DNA of 64,000 nucleotides, taken from Seonamhaeicola sp. S2-3. Its GTDB lineage: Bacteria; Bacteroidota; Bacteroidia; Flavobacteriales; Flavobacteriaceae. A program made the translations under genes and the position numbers. The notes beneath the pieces were generated by a model, which saw nothing but the letters and a program-made list of their open reading frames with translations, was not told the origin of the DNA and made no database searches. The first letter of the stretch is position 1, and every line of letters starts with the position of its first letter. Shown here in pieces: positions 2,535 to 10,537 of this stretch. The DNA lies in assembly GCF_001971785.1 (NCBI RefSeq), contig NZ_CP019389.1, positions 1,189,001 through 1,253,000 of the forward strand. Direction: 5' to 3'.

Positions 2535-2585
2535 TAACATTAAGCTAACCTAAAATTGAAACACCAATAACAATTACATAACATT
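2535..2585 (+). promoter_or_regulatory. Pho-box-like array of heptamers at 11-bp pitch
   Basis: Heptamers start every 11 bp: TAACATT at 2535, TAACCTA at 2546, TGAAACA (weak) at 2557, TAACAAT at 2568 and TAACATT at 2579. The array ends 52 bp before the ATG at 2638. Seven-base direct repeats with 4-bp spacers at 11-bp pitch are the architecture of PhoB operators in other bacteria. Assignment to PhoB here is inference, and the AT-rich background makes single copies unremarkable. Confidence 0.5.
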
Positions 2586-2637
2586 AAAAATTTAATAAAA
2601 TCGGTTATTTGCAACTTACAAACCCATAAGCTTAAAA

Positions 2638-3003
2638 ATGAAACAATTAGCAATTTTATTTTTTATTTTGTTTACAACAAGCGCTATTGCCCAAGATACA
2701 GGGTTAATTGTTGGTAAAATTTTAGATAAAGAAATGGATAACACACCTTTACCATTTGCTAATGTTTCTATTAAAGGTACTTCAAATAGTGTAACTTCTG
2801 ATATTTCTGGAATGTTTCTTTTTGAAAACCTTAAAGATGGTGATTATACCTTGGTTTGTAATTTTGCTGGTTACGAAACTAAAGAAATTAAAGTACATGT
2901 AGATTCTTATCACCCAGCCGAAATTAAACTTTCCTTAGAAGCTTTTTCTTTACCAATAACAGAAGTAGCTTCAGCCCAAAATATTGACAAAAAAGAAATT
3001 TAG
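2638..3003 (+). CDS. Small secreted protein made of a single CarboxypepD_reg-like domain
   Basis: This 121-residue protein has a signal peptide (hydrophobic stretch, then IAQDT) followed by one beta-sandwich domain: LIVGKILDKEMDNTPLPFA, ISGMFLFENLKDGDYTL, NFAGYETKEIKV. The domain closely parallels the N-terminal domain of the TonB receptor at 4646, including the G-YETKEI motif, but there is no plug or barrel behind it. It is therefore a free-standing copy of a receptor N-terminal extension. It should sit in the periplasm. Its role is unknown; it might bind or regulate a TonB-system partner. It could also be the remnant of a lost receptor, although it ends in its own stop with no barrel debris after it. 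A phased Pho-like array lies upstream. Confidence 0.75.
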   Translation: MKQLAILFFILFTTSAIAQDTGLIVGKILDKEMDNTPLPFANVSIKGTSNSVTSDISGMFLFENLKDGDYTLVCNFAGYETKEIKVHVDSYHPAEIKLSLEAFSLPITEVASAQNIDKKEI

Positions 3004-3160
3004 TAATAATACTTCTTTTGTTTTTTTATCTAGTTAACTTCAATAAACTTTTTTAGTTTTAAAAGCACTCACTTTATATTTTTCTGCAACAAAGGTAAAT
3101 TATCTTGTTTTTTAATGTTAAGAAATTGTTGCTTGTTTATTTAAAAAAACACTTTTCTCA

Positions 3161-3222
3161 TAACATTATAATAACCCTTTTATCACTGTTCTTTAACTTG
3201 TTGGTAACACCATGTTCATATT
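3161..3222 (+). promoter_or_regulatory. Pho-box-like array, six heptamers at 11-bp pitch
   Basis: In exact 11-bp phase I read TAACATT (3161), TAACCCT (3172), TCACTGT (3183), TAACTTG (3194), TAACACC (3205) and TCATATT (3216). Five of the six keep the T-A-A-C or T-C-A start. The array ends 57 bp before the ATG at 3280. It matches the pitch and unit size of the arrays at 2535 and 8175. A PhoB-type response regulator is the natural candidate binder, which is inference. Confidence 0.5.
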
Positions 3223-3279
3223 ACGTGCATTTCTTTGCACCATAAAATTGAACAAAAAAATTATCTAAAATTTAAACTC

Positions 3280-4578
3280 ATGAAAAAAATAATTTTAACT
3301 CTTTTAATTGCATCTACTTTAGTATTTACAGGATGTTTACAAGATGATGACACACCTATAATTGTTGAGGAAACTACAAATAACTATTATAATGATGGTA
3401 ATAGTGGCAGCGATGAAGATTACGAAACAATTATAAAAGCAGGTGGTATAGCTTTAGATGAAACTTGGACATCTGACAAAGTTTATGTATTAGACAGAAA
3501 AGTAGTAGTGCAAGAAGGTGTTACTTTAACTATAGAAGCTGGTACAATTATTAAAGGTAGAGCGGGTACAGGATCTTTATCTTCTGCATTAATTATTGCT
3601 AGAGGTGCTAAAATTAACGCTGTTGGTACTGCTGATGCTCCAATTATTTTCACTTCAGAAAGTGATAACATAGAGCCAGGACAAACAGCAGGAACTAACT
3701 TAACTTCTGCTAACAAAGGTCTTTGGGGTGGTGTTATTATGTTAGGTAGAGCCACTATATCTGTTTCTGGAGATACTGGTCTTGCTAATATAGAAGGTAT
3801 TGCTGCTGATGATACATTTGGTCTTTATGGTGTAGATTTAGCCGATGGTGAAACTTTTGATGATGAAGATAACTCTGGTACTTTACAATATGTTTCTATC
3901 CGTCACGGTGGAGCTTTATTAGGTGAAGGAAATGAAATTAACGGATTAACATTAGGTGGTGTTGGTAGAGGTACTACAATTGATAATGTTGAAGTTGTTG
4001 CTAACGTTGATGATGGTGTTGAGTTCTTTGGTGGAACTGTAAACGCATCTAACTTATTAGTATGGGCACAAGGTGATGATGCTTTAGATATTGACCAAGC
4101 TTACTCTGGAACCATTACCAATGCTGTTGTTGTTTTAGGAGATGATTCAGACCACGGTTTAGAAATTGACGGTCCAGAAGGTTCTATTGATGGTGAATTC
4201 ACTATCAACAATTTAACAATGATTGGTAATACTACAACTGCTAACGGTGAGTATGCAGATTTTAGAAGTAACGCTCAAGGACATGTAAATAATGTGTATG
4301 CTTACGGATTTAAAGATTCTTCAGACGTTGAGTTAGATAACGATGGTGTTGCTACCAACTGGAATGATGGTTTAATTACTTTAGGTACTTGGGAAATTGT
4401 ATTGCCAAGTGGTGTTACAGATGTAACTAGCATTTTTGCTAACAAAGCAGAAAACGTTACAGTTACAGGTTTTGGAGATACTGCTACTGCTGTAACTCAA
4501 GGAAGTCAAACTGTTGGAGCTAATACTTCTGCTCTTAGCTGGACTTACGCTAATACAGCTGGAAGTTTAGGCTTCTAA
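3280..4578 (+). CDS. Surface-exposed beta-helix-type lipoprotein, partner of the TonB receptor
   Basis: I take the ATG at 3280 rather than the in-frame TTG at 3235 because it puts a lipoprotein signal at the N-terminus, with lipobox LVFTGC. The residues after Cys, LQDDD, resemble the acidic lipoprotein export signal known in Bacteroidota, so the 432-residue protein is probably on the cell surface. The body has repeated short strands with Gly, Asn and Asp turns (GVTLTIEAGTIIKGRAG, GLWGGVIMLGRA, VEFFGGTVNASNL), which suggests a right-handed parallel beta-helix. No enzyme motif is recognised. It lies 67 bp before the TonB receptor, so the two likely work as surface binder and transporter. The substrate is unknown; the Pho-like array suggests a phosphorus compound. 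Confidence 0.75.
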   Translation: MKKIILTLLIASTLVFTGCLQDDDTPIIVEETTNNYYNDGNSGSDEDYETIIKAGGIALDETWTSDKVYVLDRKVVVQEGVTLTIEAGTIIKGRAGTGSLSSALIIARGAKINAVGTADAPIIFTSESDNIEPGQTAGTNLTSANKGLWGGVIMLGRATISVSGDTGLANIEGIAADDTFGLYGVDLADGETFDDEDNSGTLQYVSIRHGGALLGEGNEINGLTLGGVGRGTTIDNVEVVANVDDGVEFFGGTVNASNLLVWAQGDDALDIDQAYSGTITNAVVVLGDDSDHGLEIDGPEGSIDGEFTINNLTMIGNTTTANGEYADFRSNAQGHVNNVYAYGFKDSSDVELDNDGVATNWNDGLITLGTWEIVLPSGVTDVTSIFANKAENVTVTGFGDTATAVTQGSQTVGANTSALSWTYANTAGSLGF

Positions 4579-4603
4579 TCAAACTATTTTTAACAAATAA
4601 GTA

Positions 4604-4630
4604 ACTACTGCTCACTAGGTGAGCAGTAGT
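4604..4630 (+). other. Perfect intercistronic hairpin without U-tract
   Basis: ACTACTGCTCAC (4604-4615), a 3-nt loop and GTGAGCAGTAGT (4619-4630) form a 12-bp perfect stem 15 bp before the receptor ATG. No T-run follows, so it is a poor terminator. It may be an attenuator, or an mRNA-stabilising or processing hairpin that sets the lipoprotein to receptor ratio. Confidence 0.7.
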
Positions 4631-4645
4631 ATATAAATCACATTT

Positions 4646-7534
4646 ATGAAAAATTATTTAATAGTTCTTATTCTATTTGCAATAGGATTATTTGATGTTG
4701 CCAACGCACAATCCGGAGTTTTAACCGGAAACATTATTGATGGCGACTACAATAATGAACCGCTTGCATTTGCTAACGTACTAGTTAAAGGAACTACAAC
4801 AGGTACCACTTCAGATTTTGAAGGGAAATATCAACTAGATTTAGAAGCCGGTACTTATACAATTCTTTTTTCTTTTGTTGGTTATGAAACTAAAGAAATT
4901 GCCGATGTAGTTATAAAAGCTGGACAAGAAACTTTCTTAGATGTAACACTAGCATCAAATTCTTTAGAAACAGTAGTCATTACTCAATCTATCAAAAGAA
5001 ATACCGAAAGTTCTGCATTAGCGCTTCAGAAAAAATCAGTTACACTATTAGATGCTTTATCTGCACAAAGCATTAAAAAAACTGGTGCAGGTGATGCTGC
5101 CAGTGCAGTAAGAAGCGTTCCTGGAGTTTCTGTTCAAGGCGGAAAATATGTATACGTTAGAGGTCTGGGAGACAGATATTCTAAATCTATTTTAAATGGT
5201 GTTGATATTCCTGGTTTAGACCCAGATAGAAACACAGTTCAAATGGACGTGTTTCCTACAAACATTATTGATAATATTGTAGTAGTTAAATCTGCTGCTG
5301 CAGAACACCCTGCCGATTTTACTGGAGGTATTGTAGATATTATTACAAAAGATTTCCCTACAAAAGCAGAATATTCTATATCAGTAGGAGCTGCTTACAA
5401 CCCAGACATGCATTTTAATGATAATGCTTTAGAGTATGAAGGAAGCGATACCGATATTTTTGGTTTTGATGATGGCACCAGAAGTTTGCCTATTAATCGT
5501 TACCAACCAATTCCTGGTACTTTTGAAGATAAAATCTTATTAACATCTTTAACAAGTCGGTTTGAAAAACAACTAAAAGCTACTAACTTTACTAACGGTG
5601 CTAATTTTGATTTTGGTTTTACTTTAGGTAACCAATATGCACTTGAAAACAGTGATAAAATTGGTTATCAAGTAGCCGTGTCTTACAAGAACGATGTAAC
5701 TTTCTATGAAAACAGAATTGATGGTCGTTATACAAGACGTGTTACTTCTGGTTCTAACGATATTTATGAGTTAGATGCTAGTAGAACAAGTTCAGGGTCA
5801 GAAAGCATAAATTCTGTATTGCTAAGTGCTTTAGGAGGAATTACTTATAAAACAAACCGTTCTAAGTTTAAAATAAACTTATTACACATACAAAACGGCG
5901 AATCTACCTCTAACTTTTTATCTCAACAAGTAAATACCAGTGGTGGGGTTGGTTCTTTTGAGCCTATTGTAAAAGATGGTTTGTTATACACCCAACGCTC
6001 TATTACTAATTTATTAGTTGCTGGTTCTCATGCTTTTGGTGCAGACAGCGAGTGGAATTTTGATTGGAAATTATCTCCAACATTTACTGGAGTTTATGAT
6101 AAAGATCACAGAATTACACCTTTACAAATTAGTGATGATGGCGATTATTTTATCTCTCCAAGTTCTTCTAGTTATCCATTACAATTATGGAGAAGCTTAA
6201 CTGAAGAAAACTGGTCTGGAAAAGCCGATTTTAGTAAAAAAGCTACTATCTTTAACAGACCTGCTAAATTAAAATTTGGTGGAGCTCATACTTATAAATT
6301 TAGAGATTTTAGTGTAGATCAGTACTCTTTCACATCAACCAATGTTATTATTCCAAATGGTGATACTAACTTATTGTTACAGCCAGAAAACATTTGGACT
6401 CCAGATACTGATGAAGGTACTTACTTAACTATAGAAAATGCCTTTGAACCATCTAATGCTTATGAAGGTGAACAACAAGTGAGTGCTACATATTTTTCTG
6501 CTGAATTTAACTTATCTGAAAAATTAAAAACAGTATTAGGTATTCGTGCAGAAAATTATGTTCAATACTATACAGGTGAAGAAAACGATGGTACAGCATA
6601 CGTAAGAGAAAAAATTATTGACAATTTTGATGTATTTCCATCGGCTAATTTAATTTATGCACTATCTGATGAATCTAATTTAAGAGCATCTTATTCTAGA
6701 ACCACAGCAAGACCTTCTTTTAAAGAAGCTTCTAGTGCTCAAATTTATGATCCTGTAACTAACGATACATTTTTAGGAAATGCATTTGGTAAGTTTGACT
6801 CTAATGGTGCTATTATTTATGACCCTATTAGTCCAACTTATATTAACAACTTCGATTTAAGATATGAAATCTTTAGAGAAGAAGGCCAAATGATTGCGCT
6901 TAGTGGTTTTTATAAATCGTTTAAAGACCCTATAGAAATTGTATTTATGCCAAATACAAGTTCGGCTGCTCCACAATATACAGTAGCTAACTTAGGAGAT
7001 TCAAAAGTTTATGGGGCAGAGTTTGAGTTTCGTCAAAACTTCGGGTTTTTAAGTGAGTCTTTATCAAATTTAAAGTTTACTGCTAACGCATCTTATACAC
7101 AATCTGAATTAGAAATGTCTGATTTTGAATACCAATTACGTACAGCAGATGGCGTTATAAAAACCGGTGAAACTGTAGATAGAACACGTGATTTACAAGG
7201 TATGGCTCCTTACTTAATAAATGGAGGATTAGATTATAATTTTGGAGATTCTGGTATAAGAACTGGTGTATTTTACAACGTACAAGGTAAAACCTTAGTA
7301 ATAGTTGGTAATGGTTATTTTCCTGATGTTTACACCAAACCTTTCCATAGTTTAAACTTTACATCTAATTTTACTTTTGGTAAGAATAAAAATTCTTCAA
7401 TTGATTTTAAAGTAAAGAATATTTTAGGTGATGAAAGAGAAAGTGCTTTTGAATCTTTTAAAGCACAAGATCAAATATTTTCTTTAAGACAACCAGGAAC
7501 AGAGTTTTCACTTGGTTATTCACTCAAGTTTTAA
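4646..7534 (+). CDS. TonB-dependent outer-membrane receptor with N-terminal CarboxypepD_reg domain
   Basis: The 962-residue protein has a signal peptide ending near NAQSG. A CarboxypepD_reg-like domain follows (about 24-110: GVLTGNIIDGD, FVGYETKEI), then a plug (about 120-240: SVPGVSVQGGKYVYVRGLGDRYS, GGIVDIITK), then a long 22-strand-type barrel ending GTEFSLGYSLKF with the expected C-terminal Phe. It imports a ligand across the outer membrane using TonB/ExbBD energy. No SusD gene is next to it; instead the partner is the lipoprotein at 3280. The ligand is unknown. The array in front of the upstream genes suggests phosphate-starvation control, which is inference. Confidence 0.93.
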   Translation: MKNYLIVLILFAIGLFDVANAQSGVLTGNIIDGDYNNEPLAFANVLVKGTTTGTTSDFEGKYQLDLEAGTYTILFSFVGYETKEIADVVIKAGQETFLDVTLASNSLETVVITQSIKRNTESSALALQKKSVTLLDALSAQSIKKTGAGDAASAVRSVPGVSVQGGKYVYVRGLGDRYSKSILNGVDIPGLDPDRNTVQMDVFPTNIIDNIVVVKSAAAEHPADFTGGIVDIITKDFPTKAEYSISVGAAYNPDMHFNDNALEYEGSDTDIFGFDDGTRSLPINRYQPIPGTFEDKILLTSLTSRFEKQLKATNFTNGANFDFGFTLGNQYALENSDKIGYQVAVSYKNDVTFYENRIDGRYTRRVTSGSNDIYELDASRTSSGSESINSVLLSALGGITYKTNRSKFKINLLHIQNGESTSNFLSQQVNTSGGVGSFEPIVKDGLLYTQRSITNLLVAGSHAFGADSEWNFDWKLSPTFTGVYDKDHRITPLQISDDGDYFISPSSSSYPLQLWRSLTEENWSGKADFSKKATIFNRPAKLKFGGAHTYKFRDFSVDQYSFTSTNVIIPNGDTNLLLQPENIWTPDTDEGTYLTIENAFEPSNAYEGEQQVSATYFSAEFNLSEKLKTVLGIRAENYVQYYTGEENDGTAYVREKIIDNFDVFPSANLIYALSDESNLRASYSRTTARPSFKEASSAQIYDPVTNDTFLGNAFGKFDSNGAIIYDPISPTYINNFDLRYEIFREEGQMIALSGFYKSFKDPIEIVFMPNTSSAAPQYTVANLGDSKVYGAEFEFRQNFGFLSESLSNLKFTANASYTQSELEMSDFEYQLRTADGVIKTGETVDRTRDLQGMAPYLINGGLDYNFGDSGIRTGVFYNVQGKTLVIVGNGYFPDVYTKPFHSLNFTSNFTFGKNKNSSIDFKVKNILGDERESAFESFKAQDQIFSLRQPGTEFSLGYSLKF

Positions 7535-7551
7535 TGAGTTTAGATATAAAC

Positions 7552-7580
7552 AAAAAAGCTCCCAAATTGGGAGCTTTTTT
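7552..7580 (+). terminator. Rho-independent terminator after the TonB receptor
   Basis: Stem AAGCTCCC / GGGAGCTT with an AAATT-type loop, flanked by A6 and T6, 17 bp after the receptor stop. It should act in both directions and also ends the convergent gene at 7608. Confidence 0.9.
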
Positions 7581-7607
7581 ATTCAATTAATTCTACTACT
7601 CTACTCG

Positions 7608-7958
7608 TTAAAGAGCTTCTGCCTTACTAGTTGTTGCAACATTTGTAATTTTAGAATCTACATAATTCACTTCGTTCACTACACCGTTAGCATAAAAAAG
7701 CCATTTCCCAACTTTTTTGCCATTTTCATAATTTCCAACAGCTAATTTGTTACCTGCTTTATCATAACTTGTCCAGGTACCGTGAAGTTTTCCGGCTTTA
7801 TTAAAAGTGCCTTTTTGTTGTATACTGCCATCTGCATAGAAATATGTAGCTTCAGTTAATTCTTTCTTTTGAACACGTTTTACTTTTGCATTACTTTCTT
7901 GTGCAAAAACTGATGTTCCTATAAATAAAACTGCTAATATTAAGATATATTTTTTCAT
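7608..7958 (-). CDS. Secreted MORN-repeat (YwqK-like) protein
   Basis: A signal peptide (MKKYILILAVLFIGTSVFAQ) precedes about 95 residues with MORN_2-type repeats: YFYADGSIQQKGTFNKAGKLHGTW, SYDKAGNKLAVGNYENGKKVGKW and LFYANGVVNEVNY. Such proteins in Bacteroidota are often labelled YwqK-family antitoxins, but that label rests on a Bacillus protein and there is no toxin gene here. It is probably periplasmic or outer-membrane associated. Its role is unknown. It is divergent from the phosphate transporter and shares a 287-bp gap with it that holds two Pho-like arrays. Confidence 0.8.
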   Translation of the reverse strand: MKKYILILAVLFIGTSVFAQESNAKVKRVQKKELTEATYFYADGSIQQKGTFNKAGKLHGTWTSYDKAGNKLAVGNYENGKKVGKWLFYANGVVNEVNYVDSKITNVATTSKAEAL

Positions 7959-8018
7959 TATACGTGGGGTTTTAATTAATATTTATATAACAAATATACA
8001 ACTGATTTTACATATACG

Positions 8019-8047
8019 CAACATTTACGTAACATTAATTTAACATT
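8019..8047. promoter_or_regulatory. Pho-box-like array, three heptamers at 11-bp pitch
   Basis: CAACATT (8019), TAACATT (8030) and TAACATT (8041) are spaced exactly 11 bp apart with 4-bp spacers. The array is 60 bp upstream of the start of the minus-strand MORN gene and about 200 bp upstream of the phosphate transporter, so it could serve either. Confidence 0.55.
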
Positions 8048-8174
8048 AAACTTGTAATTAATTGATTTTTAGCGCTTTACTTTATTTTAAATTTATTAAC
8101 ATAATAAGAACTCAATAAGAGTAGTGCAATTGTTTTAAATTTTCATTAGTAATAAATAAAATACAGAAAGAACA

Positions 8175-8192
8175 TAACATTTCCGTAACATT
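8175..8192 (+). promoter_or_regulatory. Pho-box-like pair before the phosphate transporter
   Basis: Two perfect TAACATT copies (8175, 8186) are separated by TCCG, with a weaker TAAATTA in phase at 8197. The pair ends 53 bp before the ATG at 8246, where an activator site is expected. Its position before a phosphate transporter gene is the main reason to read all four arrays as Pho boxes. Confidence 0.55.
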
Positions 8193-8245
8193 TGGTTAAA
8201 TTAAAAATAAGACATTTGTTTTCAATATATTTTACCCTTATTTGA

Positions 8246-10537
8246 ATGGACAATCTGTATACTTTTATGATTATTGCTCTTGCTGTTTTAGCAATAGCAG
8301 ATTTAGTTGTTGGTGTAAGTAATGATGCTGTAAATTTTCTTAATTCAGCAATTGGCTCAAAAGCTGTTTCCTTTAAAACTTTAATGATTGTAGCTAGTAT
8401 AGGAGTAGCTTTTGGCGCTCTGTCTTCTAGCGGAATGATGGAAATTGCTCGTAAAGGTATTTTTGTTCCAGGTGAGTTTGTATTTGATGAAATCATGATT
8501 ATTTTTATGGCGGTTATGATAACCGATATTCTTCTGCTAGATTTCTTTAATACTCTGGGACTACCAACATCTACAACAGTTTCTATAGTTTTTGAGCTTT
8601 TAGGAGCCTCTGTTTCTATGGCTCTTATAAAAATTACATTAGATGATAACCTGTCTTTATTAGACATTGGAAATTATATTAATAACGAAAAGGCAATAGA
8701 AATCATTCTAGGTATCTTGCTGTCCGTTGTAGTAGCTTTTTCTGTAGGTGCTATTATTCAATACATTTCGCGTCTTTTATTATCATTCAACTTTAACAAT
8801 AAACCCAAACTTTACGGGGCTATTTTTAGTGGTTTTGCGGTAACATCAATTATGTACTTTATTTTAATAAAAGGAATAAAGAATGCCACTTTTATGAGTG
8901 ATAACTTTAAAAGTTTAATTTCAGAAAATACCACAATGGTTCTTGCTATTGGTTTTACCTTCTTTACAATAGTTTCATTACTAATTATGACCCTACTTAA
9001 AACCAATATTTACAAAATTATTATTGTTGTAGGTACATTTGCTTTAGCAGTAGCTTTTGCAGGTAATGATTTAGTTAACTTTATAGGGCCTACAACAGGT
9101 GCTTATCAGGCTTATTTAGACTTTGGAAACCCAGAAGTAAATACACTTGGCTTAACAGCTCAAGAATTTACTATGGAAAGTCTTAGTAATAAAATCTACA
9201 CGCCTACATACATATTGTTAGCAGCAGGTTTAATTATGGTCTTAACCTTATGGTTTTCTAGTAAAGCTAAAGCCGTTGTAAAAACATCGGTAGATTTATC
9301 TAGACAAGATGATGTTAAAGAACGTTTTGAACCTAACTTTTTATCTAGAAACATTGTTAGAATGTCTATTGCCGCATCAGATAATTTTAACAACCTTTTA
9401 CCAAACAATTTTAAACGTTTTACATCTCAGCAATTCAAAGAACCTGTTATTTCTGCTGCCATTAAAAAAGAAGATCTTCCTGCTTTTGATTTAGTTAGAG
9501 CAGCTGTTAACCTTATGGTTGCAAGTGTGTTAATTTCTTTAGCTACCTCAATGAAATTACCTTTATCAACTACATATGTTACATTTATGGTAGCCATGGG
9601 AACCTCTTTAGCCGATAGAGCTTGGGGAAGTGAAAGTGCTGTTTATAGAGTAGCAGGCGTTTTAAACGTTATTGGTGGTTGGTTTTTTACCGCTTTAAGT
9701 GCTTTTGTTGCCGCTGCAATAATGGCTTTAATTATATATTATGGCAGAGGCTATGCTCTTGTAGCTTTAATTACTTTTGCGTTAATAGTTTTAGTTAGAA
9801 ATTATTTAAACCACAGAAAAAAAACAAAAGAATTAAAAGCTGAAGATAGTTTACAAAAAGCCGAAAGCAGTTCTACACAAGGTGTTATTTTAGAAAGTGC
9901 AAACAATATTGCAAACGTTGTTAAACGTAGTAATAGAATTTACACCAATGCGGTTAATGGTCTTGCTACACATAATCTTAAAGTACTTAAGAAAAATAAA
10001 ACACAAGTAGGGAAACTAACTGAAGAAATTGAAGATTTAAAAGATAACATATTCTATTTCATTAAAAATTTAGATGAACCAAGTGTTAAAGCAAGTAACT
10101 TTTATTTAAGTATTTTAAGATACTTACAAGACATGGCTCAATCTTTAACTTACATCTCAAACACAAGCTACAAACATGTCAACAATAATCATAAAAAATT
10201 AAAATTCAGTCAAATAAAAGAGCTTAAAGAAATTGATGATGCTTTTGAAATATTATTTAATGATACTAGAAGCGCCTTTAAATCTGGCTCTTTTGATGAA
10301 ATAGGTTCTGTACTAAAAAGAAAACATACCCTTTTTAATCTTTTAACAGACAAAATTCAAAAACAAGTAGAACGTACACGCAAAGAAGAATCTAGCCCTA
10401 AAAATACTACATTATATTTTGGTATTTTATTAGAAACTAAAGACTTATTAACTGCAACCATGAGTCTTTTAGAAGAATACTACAACTCTCATGATGCAAC
10501 AGTAACACCAGCATCTGTTGAAAACGAGCATAGTTAA
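8246..10537 (+). CDS. Pit-family inorganic phosphate transporter with C-terminal PhoU-like domain
   Basis: The first ~520 of 763 residues are a multi-helix membrane transporter with the two inverted Pit signature repeats: GVSNDAVNFLNSAIGSKA near residue 24 and AGNDLVNFIGPTTGAY near residue 272. The last ~230 residues are helical and charged (VVKRSNRIYTNAVNGLATHN, LTEEIEDLKDNIFYFIKNL) and resemble PhoU-like domains fused to or paired with Pit in many Bacteroidota. It moves phosphate with H+ or Na+ across the inner membrane; the tail probably regulates it. A Pho-like pair lies at the promoter. An OmpA lipoprotein gene follows after 74 bp. Confidence 0.9.
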   Translation: MDNLYTFMIIALAVLAIADLVVGVSNDAVNFLNSAIGSKAVSFKTLMIVASIGVAFGALSSSGMMEIARKGIFVPGEFVFDEIMIIFMAVMITDILLLDFFNTLGLPTSTTVSIVFELLGASVSMALIKITLDDNLSLLDIGNYINNEKAIEIILGILLSVVVAFSVGAIIQYISRLLLSFNFNNKPKLYGAIFSGFAVTSIMYFILIKGIKNATFMSDNFKSLISENTTMVLAIGFTFFTIVSLLIMTLLKTNIYKIIIVVGTFALAVAFAGNDLVNFIGPTTGAYQAYLDFGNPEVNTLGLTAQEFTMESLSNKIYTPTYILLAAGLIMVLTLWFSSKAKAVVKTSVDLSRQDDVKERFEPNFLSRNIVRMSIAASDNFNNLLPNNFKRFTSQQFKEPVISAAIKKEDLPAFDLVRAAVNLMVASVLISLATSMKLPLSTTYVTFMVAMGTSLADRAWGSESAVYRVAGVLNVIGGWFFTALSAFVAAAIMALIIYYGRGYALVALITFALIVLVRNYLNHRKKTKELKAEDSLQKAESSSTQGVILESANNIANVVKRSNRIYTNAVNGLATHNLKVLKKNKTQVGKLTEEIEDLKDNIFYFIKNLDEPSVKASNFYLSILRYLQDMAQSLTYISNTSYKHVNNNHKKLKFSQIKELKEIDDAFEILFNDTRSAFKSGSFDEIGSVLKRKHTLFNLLTDKIQKQVERTRKEESSPKNTTLYFGILLETKDLLTATMSLLEEYYNSHDATVTPASVENEHS

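Follow-up and report, generated by a model that had tools for sequence, protein, structure and literature searches.

Predicted PhoB operators built of phased 11-bp repeats link a SusD-free TonB receptor locus to a Pit phosphate transporter in Seonamhaeicola sp. S2-3

The closest described relatives of the system discussed here are tied to phosphate starvation. In Flavobacterium johnsoniae, whose phosphate response has been mapped by transcriptome and proteome (PMC8115612), depletion of inorganic phosphate (Pi) strongly induces a TonB-dependent receptor (Fjoh_0545) and a lipoprotein (Fjoh_0546) encoded beside phoBR, as well as the pair Fjoh_3856/3857 and PlcP (Fjoh_4577, listed under Pfam PF12850). 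Such genes respond to Pi, and not to limitation of nitrogen or iron (PMC8115612). The lipoprotein families FI, FII and FIII are related to ElpS (PMC8115612), and in Caulobacter crescentus ElpS (CC0170) pairs with the TonB receptor CC0171 (PMC2996285). We have analyzed a locus of Seonamhaeicola sp. S2-3 contained in a 64,000-nucleotide stretch of its genome (positions 1,189,001 to 1,253,000 of NZ_CP019389.1; this whole stretch is called the window, and its own numbering is used). Here genes for a free CarboxypepD_reg-like protein, a surface lipoprotein, a TonB-dependent receptor and a Pit phosphate transporter are accompanied by four arrays of heptamers repeated every 11 bp. Judged by their sequence, placement and phase, these arrays are very probably PhoB operators, i.e., PHO boxes.

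The system is known in kind from the F. johnsoniae (PMC8115612) and Caulobacter (PMC2996285) precedents. Like the F. johnsoniae clusters PUSIV (Fjoh_0543-0546) and PUSIII (Fjoh_3851-3859), it has a TonB receptor and a lipoprotein of the same wider family without SusD; both clusters are induced by phosphate depletion, and PUSIV lies beside phoBR (PMC8115612). With F. hibernum standing in for F. johnsoniae, the S2-3 locus has the gene content of a PUS-type cluster, a TonB receptor adjoining a lipoprotein of the FI/FII type. The order in F. hibernum is phoR, phoB, receptor, lipoprotein, the same as in PUSIV, and through this stand-in we have therefore taken FII to be the class-2 (receptor-first) family. 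The S2-3 locus differs from PUSIV in having the lipoprotein first, with only 32% identity to that of F. hibernum, and in lying beside Pit rather than phoBR. It differs from both clusters in having, ahead of the cassette, a free CarboxypepD_reg gene that has an array of its own. ElpS and CC0171 are likewise a phosphate-starvation lipoprotein beside a TonB receptor, the likeness running through the relation of FI, FII and FIII (PMC2996285, PMC8115612), although ElpS is tied to a type II secretion system (PMC2996285). We found no operator sequence described for PUSIII or PUSIV in the available part of PMC8115612, and no tandem-repeat Pho operator in Bacteroidota in the literature searched, the searches being only partly aimed at it. 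What is apparently new here is the geometry of operator and promoter, the clean swap of receptor cassettes while the promoter stays, and the free protein that looks like a receptor's N-terminal domain.

A preliminary description of the locus reported TAACATT-like heptamers recurring exactly every 11 bp ahead of the gene at 2638, ahead of that at 3280 and within the MORN-Pit gap. All four arrays were found, with a pitch of exactly 11 bp within each, and all are read on the plus strand. Array A (2535..2585), the predicted PhoB operator of the free CarboxypepD_reg gene, has five 11-bp units, TAACATT, TAACCTA, TGAAACA, TAACAAT and TAACATT, starting at 2535, 2546, 2557, 2568 and 2579; the third of these is weak. 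Array B (3161..3222), the predicted PhoB operator of the lipoprotein/receptor operon, has six, starting at 3161, 3172, 3183, 3194, 3205 and 3216. Array C (8008..8047) lies between the divergent MORN and Pit genes and has four units, at 8019, 8030 and 8041 together with TTACATA at 8008. Array D (8175..8203), the predicted PhoB operator of Pit, comprises two exact TAACATT units at 8175 and 8186 and a weaker third, TAAATTA, at 8197.

The arrays were scored using a matrix of 114 units taken from 19 promoters of other genera, and compared with 100 dinucleotide shuffles of the whole window on both strands. The best scores of array A (27.7, five units), array B (33.8, six units) and array C (25.4, four units) lie well clear of the corresponding shuffle maxima of 17.1, 17.5 and 18.9. 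The expectation that the arrays would stand out from shuffled sequence was thus borne out for A, B and C, each above all 100 shuffles, and not for array D taken alone. Using a matrix that includes arrays A-D themselves, 12 positions in the window scored 12 or more at a pitch of 11, and from 0 to 3 did so at each of the pitches 7-10 and 12-15. The enrichment is confined to pitch 11 both in the window and in the relatives.

The form of the arrays is that of PHO boxes, which are repeats of about seven conserved and four less conserved bases (PMC4415409); the arrays are direct repeats of this make-up, with at least two units in each. Like the PHO boxes of Escherichia coli PhoB and cyanobacterial SphR, they run head to tail at an 11-bp pitch directly upstream of the core promoter (PMC1906773, PMC4415409). 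The SphR consensus CTTAACCT, also of 11-bp pitch, is close to the S2-3 units (PMC1906773). The arrays differ from known PHO boxes in having up to six units, and in that the -7 box of Bacteroidota replaces the sigma-70 -10 element.

This -7 box is TAnnTTTG in flavobacteria (PMC9723704). On the plus strand, predicted -7 boxes follow array A (GTTATTTG, 2604..2611, with TTTG at 2608), array B (TTTCTTTG, 3230..3237, TTTG at 3234) and array D (GACATTTG, 8211..8218, TTTG at 8215, the box of Pit). From the first unit to the TTTG is 73 bp in A, 73 bp in B and 40 bp in D, which is the same phase of 11, placing these three arrays at a fixed distance directly upstream of the core promoter. No -7 box was seen on the plus strand for array C; a perfect consensus box, TATATTTG, is predicted for the MORN gene on the minus strand (7991..7998). 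In 146 stretches kept for bearing an array at p ≤ 0.05, which include near-identical promoters and are not independent, 100 of the 120 TTTG occurrences lying 7-49 bp past the last unit share one phase of 11. The shared phase of arrays and -7 box fits an activator whose subunits sit head to tail as far as the core promoter. In described PHO boxes the repeats reach the core promoter, the PhoB boxes lying directly upstream of the -10 (PMC1906773, PMC4415409).

The same arrangement recurs in relatives, where arrays precede the receptor/lipoprotein operon, the free CarboxypepD_reg gene, the porin O/P gene and Pit, and where the array in the dgt/CarboxypepD_reg gap is kept. The gene before Pit encodes the phosphate-selective porin O/P in all four of the relatives scanned. 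An alignment of 24 promoters, 22 belonging to other genomes, needs no gaps over its 84 columns and shows six 11-bp units followed by TTTGC. The promoters were picked out of 36 non-redundant ones for TTTG at a fixed place, so that the TTTG is invariant partly by choice and only the following C is free. When the MORN-Pit gap of the window was compared with those of five relatives, arrays C and D emerged as conserved islands, with the roughly 100 bp between them aligning poorly. Two TAACAT units of array D align in the window and all five relatives, and a stricter form (three units plus TTTG) was matched in four of these six sequences.

Enrichment near phosphate genes was evaluated in two sets of loci, the unit matrix having been trained on the arrays of the window itself and an array being counted at p ≤ 0.01, i.e., where at most 1 of 200 shuffles (17 loci) or none of 100 (80 loci) reached its score. 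In 17 related loci, 25 of the 29 stretches upstream of lipoprotein, free CarboxypepD_reg, Pit or PhoB genes contain an array, the PhoB label of locus L084 being a weak match (32%). This compares with 9 of the 68 other stretches, of which six are gaps at the MORN/porin position and one is the receptor promoter of locus L089. The second set was found by way of the lipoprotein family and consists of the best 80 of 563 confirmed loci; phoB is present in 20 of them, Pit in 24 and either in 39. Here arrays stand at 47/77 receptor/lipoprotein promoters and at 28/46 promoters of Pit, PhoB-like, porin or free CarboxypepD_reg genes, versus 33/422 others, the PhoB label in these counts being unfiltered by identity. 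The arrays are thus enriched near phosphate genes in both sets, a check that the preliminary description had suggested, and their placement is at genes of the Pho regulon.

A promoter sequence model, R1, was trained on the 24 aligned promoters, two of which come from the window. In the S2-3 genome R1 recovers arrays A and B, its own training members. Its best untrained site (E 0.0098) lies away from the receptor locus, before a gene for a PlcP-like calcineurin-type phosphoesterase, whose array and -7 box occupy G000:C1:3602150-3602228 (L210, L233; G000 is the S2-3 genome). The PlcP-like identity comes from the Pfam domain PF12850 and inspection by eye, and in another genome, G150, the same gene carries the same site. 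Marine isolates, the flavobacterium Dokdonia MED134 among them, induce PlcP when starved of phosphorus (PMC4796936), and the array-bearing S2-3 gene is presumed from its domain to encode a phosphorus-starvation phosphoesterase like that of PlcP lipid remodelling (PMC4796936; Fjoh_4577). In F. glycines the best site, which is untrained, is the receptor promoter (E 2.4e-10). Of 149 Flavobacteriaceae genomes, 129 have an R1 site at E ≤ 0.01; the 149 include at least five that contributed to the training set (S2-3 and four relatives).

Twenty R1 sites in 19 genomes were examined, hand-picked among the sites listed so as to favour second sites and genomes not yet examined. At 19 of them a gene of the array-associated set starts 15-78 bases on: a free CarboxypepD_reg homologue (seven), a receptor/lipoprotein cassette (eight), porin O/P (three), or a PlcP-like protein (one, 84% identical to that of S2-3). 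The exception, locus L242 (G114:C33:398669-398728), has no array-associated gene behind its site; by eye, the next genes encode an RNA-polymerase-sigma-like protein (388 bp on) and then a FecR-like protein. Sigma and FecR-like genes are among those induced by Pi depletion in F. johnsoniae (PMC8115612).

The best PhoB match in the S2-3 genome (1046003-1046656) has receiver and DNA-binding domains with a histidine kinase downstream. It shares 77% identity with the PhoB of F. hibernum and F. glycines, which is encoded there next to receptor and lipoprotein, and a four-unit array lies next to the S2-3 phoB (loose pattern, one mismatch). The proposal that Pho boxes link a SusD-free receptor, a lipoprotein, a free CarboxypepD_reg protein and Pit is supported because the arrays are conserved at the same genes and share the phase of the -7 box, and because in relatives phoBR adjoins the receptor and lipoprotein and porin O/P adjoins Pit, to which the PlcP-like site of the model is added. 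The kind of system proposed has, however, already been published.

A number of results weigh against this reading. Array D scored 14.9 (four units), inside the shuffle range (95% point 16.7), and was accepted because it is conserved in relatives. With one mismatch, two TAACATT units matched 22 sites in the S2-3 genome and the reversed pattern 9; for a loose pattern of four TAAC units the counts were 16 and 12, with six of the 16 in the receptor/Pit locus. Since these counts are barely above the reversed controls, they carry no weight as proof here, and the simple repeat-matrix scan of the genome that had been suggested as a check would separate sites poorly. A pattern of three units plus TTTG was devised after the F. 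hibernum and F. glycines promoters had been seen; it has four exact matches in these two genomes together, all at the phoBR/porin/receptor locus, and none in the S2-3 genome. Of all matches to this pattern, those four alone were informative. With one mismatch allowed it gave nine sites versus five for controls in S2-3, none of the nine in the receptor/Pit locus, and was no better than the control in F. hibernum (8 versus 8) or F. glycines (4 versus 4). Arrays C and D are not among the R1 sites listed, the array next to phoB scores poorly with R1 (E 9.8), and 20 of the 149 family genomes are without an R1 site. The S2-3 PhoB itself is one of 34 response-regulator matches and reaches 220.5 bits, below the curated cut-off of 296.2, which is passed by the best matches of only 2 of 14 control genomes.

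Some published observations point in the same direction. OprP and PhoR are not induced by Pi depletion in F. johnsoniae (PMC8115612), and CC0171, the receptor beside ElpS, is not phosphate-regulated (PMC2996285). PhoP of Riemerella anatipestifer gives a mixed picture. In favour of the reading, it resembles the present case as a flavobacterial Pho-type regulator with sites at its own operon and at a TonB receptor; by DNA affinity purification sequencing its motif surrounds 579 of 583 peaks, with TTTAACA most conserved (PMC9603813). In the available part of that paper we found neither tandem 11-bp arrays nor any phasing with a -7 box described, and its authors liken the motif to that of ArcA (PMC9603813). 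Without PhoP, 34 of the 50 expression-changing targets go up, one TonB receptor among them, and 16 go down (PMC9603813), so activation is not the sole outcome in R. anatipestifer.

We propose the following mechanism. When phosphate is scarce PhoR would phosphorylate PhoB, and PhoB subunits would line up head to tail along the 11-bp repeats, reaching as far as the edge of the -7 box. RNA polymerase would be recruited to three promoters, with array A acting at the free CarboxypepD_reg gene, array B at the lipoprotein/TonB-receptor operon and array D at Pit; array C probably acts on the divergent MORN promoter, on Pit, or on both. The receptor and surface lipoprotein would capture a phosphorus-bearing ligand, and the ligand or a product released from it would cross the outer membrane. 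Pit, the one inorganic-phosphate importer found in the S2-3 genome, would then carry phosphate into the cell. We infer both that PhoB binds the arrays and induces at low phosphate, and that, once PhoB is active, the receptor and lipoprotein import or process a phosphorus compound. The more specific suggestion, that the receptor imports an organic phosphorus ligand, is made tentatively, as less likely than not.

It is also conceivable, if on balance unlikely, that the receptor and lipoprotein import no phosphorus ligand, and that the lipoprotein stimulates phosphatase activity outside the cell in the manner of ElpS, with the receptor sensing or carrying something else. Overproduction of ElpS raises extracellular alkaline phosphatase activity, ElpS itself being no phosphatase (PMC2996285), and the lack of phosphate regulation of CC0171 (PMC2996285) would fit, as would the relation of FI, FII and FIII to ElpS (PMC8115612). 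However, receptor and lipoprotein lie in one operon behind one array, here and in relatives, near porin O/P and Pit, which argues for uptake. A different question is whether the arrays are operators of another member of the OmpR/PhoB family that answers to iron, redox or the envelope, phosphate genes being only part of its regulon. Family members bind tandem repeats of similar size, two further near-full-length matches to the PhoB model occur in the S2-3 genome (2967110 and 816005), and the ArcA-like character noted for the PhoP motif of R. anatipestifer (PMC9603813) is in keeping with such a regulator. We nevertheless consider it improbable, for the arrays recur at phoB, Pit, porin O/P and the PlcP-like gene, and the F. 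johnsoniae genes of the same kind answer to Pi rather than to nitrogen or iron (PMC8115612). Chance periodicity of AT-rich intergenic DNA, for which the loose genome patterns and array D by itself might be cited, is refuted for arrays A, B and C by the shuffles and the enrichment in relatives, and with the pitch controls, the conserved islands and the phase of the -7 box its probability becomes negligible.

If the arrays are indeed PhoB operators, the Pho regulon of abundant marine and soil bacteria could be predicted from sequence, by way of 11-bp repeats that keep phase with a -7 box. Such a promoter code would tie uncharacterised receptors and lipoproteins, and a free receptor-like domain, to phosphorus, and would point to a locus where receptors are replaced while the switch is kept.

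Such a replacement is seen on comparing two genomes of the S2-3 genus (L076:8651-12939 and L089:4763-8804), in which the cassette between promoter and MORN gene differs cleanly. The flanks have 83-88% DNA identity, the dgt and Pit proteins are 94% identical, and the promoters agree at 77 of 84 bases. One cassette has the order lipoprotein-receptor and the other receptor-lipoprotein, with identities of 37% and 28%. Each of the two gene orders is found both at the Pit/dgt locus and beside phoBR, where L080, L082, L083, L085 and L249 are lipoprotein-first; the tally of gene orders wrongly counts tandem cassettes in seven loci as lipoprotein-first.

The free CarboxypepD_reg-like protein (2638..3003, plus strand, 121 aa) has a signal-peptide-like start and a PF13715 domain (E 1.9e-18), and neither plug nor barrel. 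Over its whole length it can be aligned to residues 1-120 of a class-2 TonB receptor, at 41% identity, and so looks like a kept N-terminal domain of a receptor. The CarboxypepD_reg domain is common to many TonB receptors, and for this reason descent from a receptor is not proven by the alignment alone. In many relatives the protein keeps its own array, and in several its gene stands before porin and/or Pit with no receptor seen between. A speculative combination of these observations would have the Pho promoter fixed and receptor/lipoprotein cassettes swapped under a kept six-unit PhoB operator, and the free protein a domesticated N-terminal domain acting in trans on any receptor that is there, a scavenging component in its own right under Pho control. 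We regard this as doubtful when taken as a whole.

The lipoprotein (3280..4578, plus strand, 432 aa) is ElpS/FI/FII-like and may be a pectin-lyase-like beta-helix. It has no Pfam or NCBIfam match, and homologues occur in 48 of the 59 genomes searched. Its family profile gave a weak match to two pectin-lyase-like chains (E 0.013-0.015); a PDB search with the single sequence returned only weak, implausible matches, and one with the receptor a single N-terminal match. The TonB-dependent receptor (4646..7534, plus strand, 962 aa) has an N-terminal CarboxypepD_reg domain and matches PF00593, PF07715 and PF13715. The earlier statement that the system is not tied to SusD holds: no SusD family was found among the six locus proteins scanned, and the receptor reached 57.8 bits, far under the SusC/RagA cut-off of 368.25. 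A SusD-linked (SusCD/PusCD) system was rejected on these grounds.

The Pit transporter of the PHO4 family (8246..10537, plus strand, 763 aa) matches PF01384 at E 8.4e-30 and 104.3 bits, over the curated cut-off of 33.7, confirming its inclusion in the set, and is the only open frame of the S2-3 genome matched by PF01384. For PstS there were two PF12849 matches in the genome, one over cut-off, and by eye both lie in LysR-type regulator genes. PstC gave one match in the genome, at 29.4 bits (cut-off 196.45). From these outcomes no Pst system was found in the S2-3 genome. The small secreted MORN_2 protein (7608..7958, minus strand, 116 aa, PF07661) is encoded divergently from Pit. Many related loci retain this divergent arrangement relative to porin or Pit. 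In the window, array C lies behind the MORN gene on the opposite strand.

Elsewhere in the S2-3 genome a paralogous lipoprotein (G000:C1:3208670) has no array scoring 10 or more in the surrounding 18 kb. At the phoB locus, phoB is divergent from a gene for a 114-aa protein with a type IX secretion tail, and the four-unit array stands between them (G000:C1:1045994-1047213, L087:5995-7214). Several relatives have, at the corresponding position, a receptor/lipoprotein pair and then a similar small protein, as if the cassette had been lost from the S2-3 phoB locus. Members of the lipoprotein family followed by a TonB receptor match also occur in the gammaproteobacterial records L170, L175 and L176 (two Aliidiomarina species and one metagenome-assembled genome), so the receptor/lipoprotein pair is not confined to Bacteroidota.

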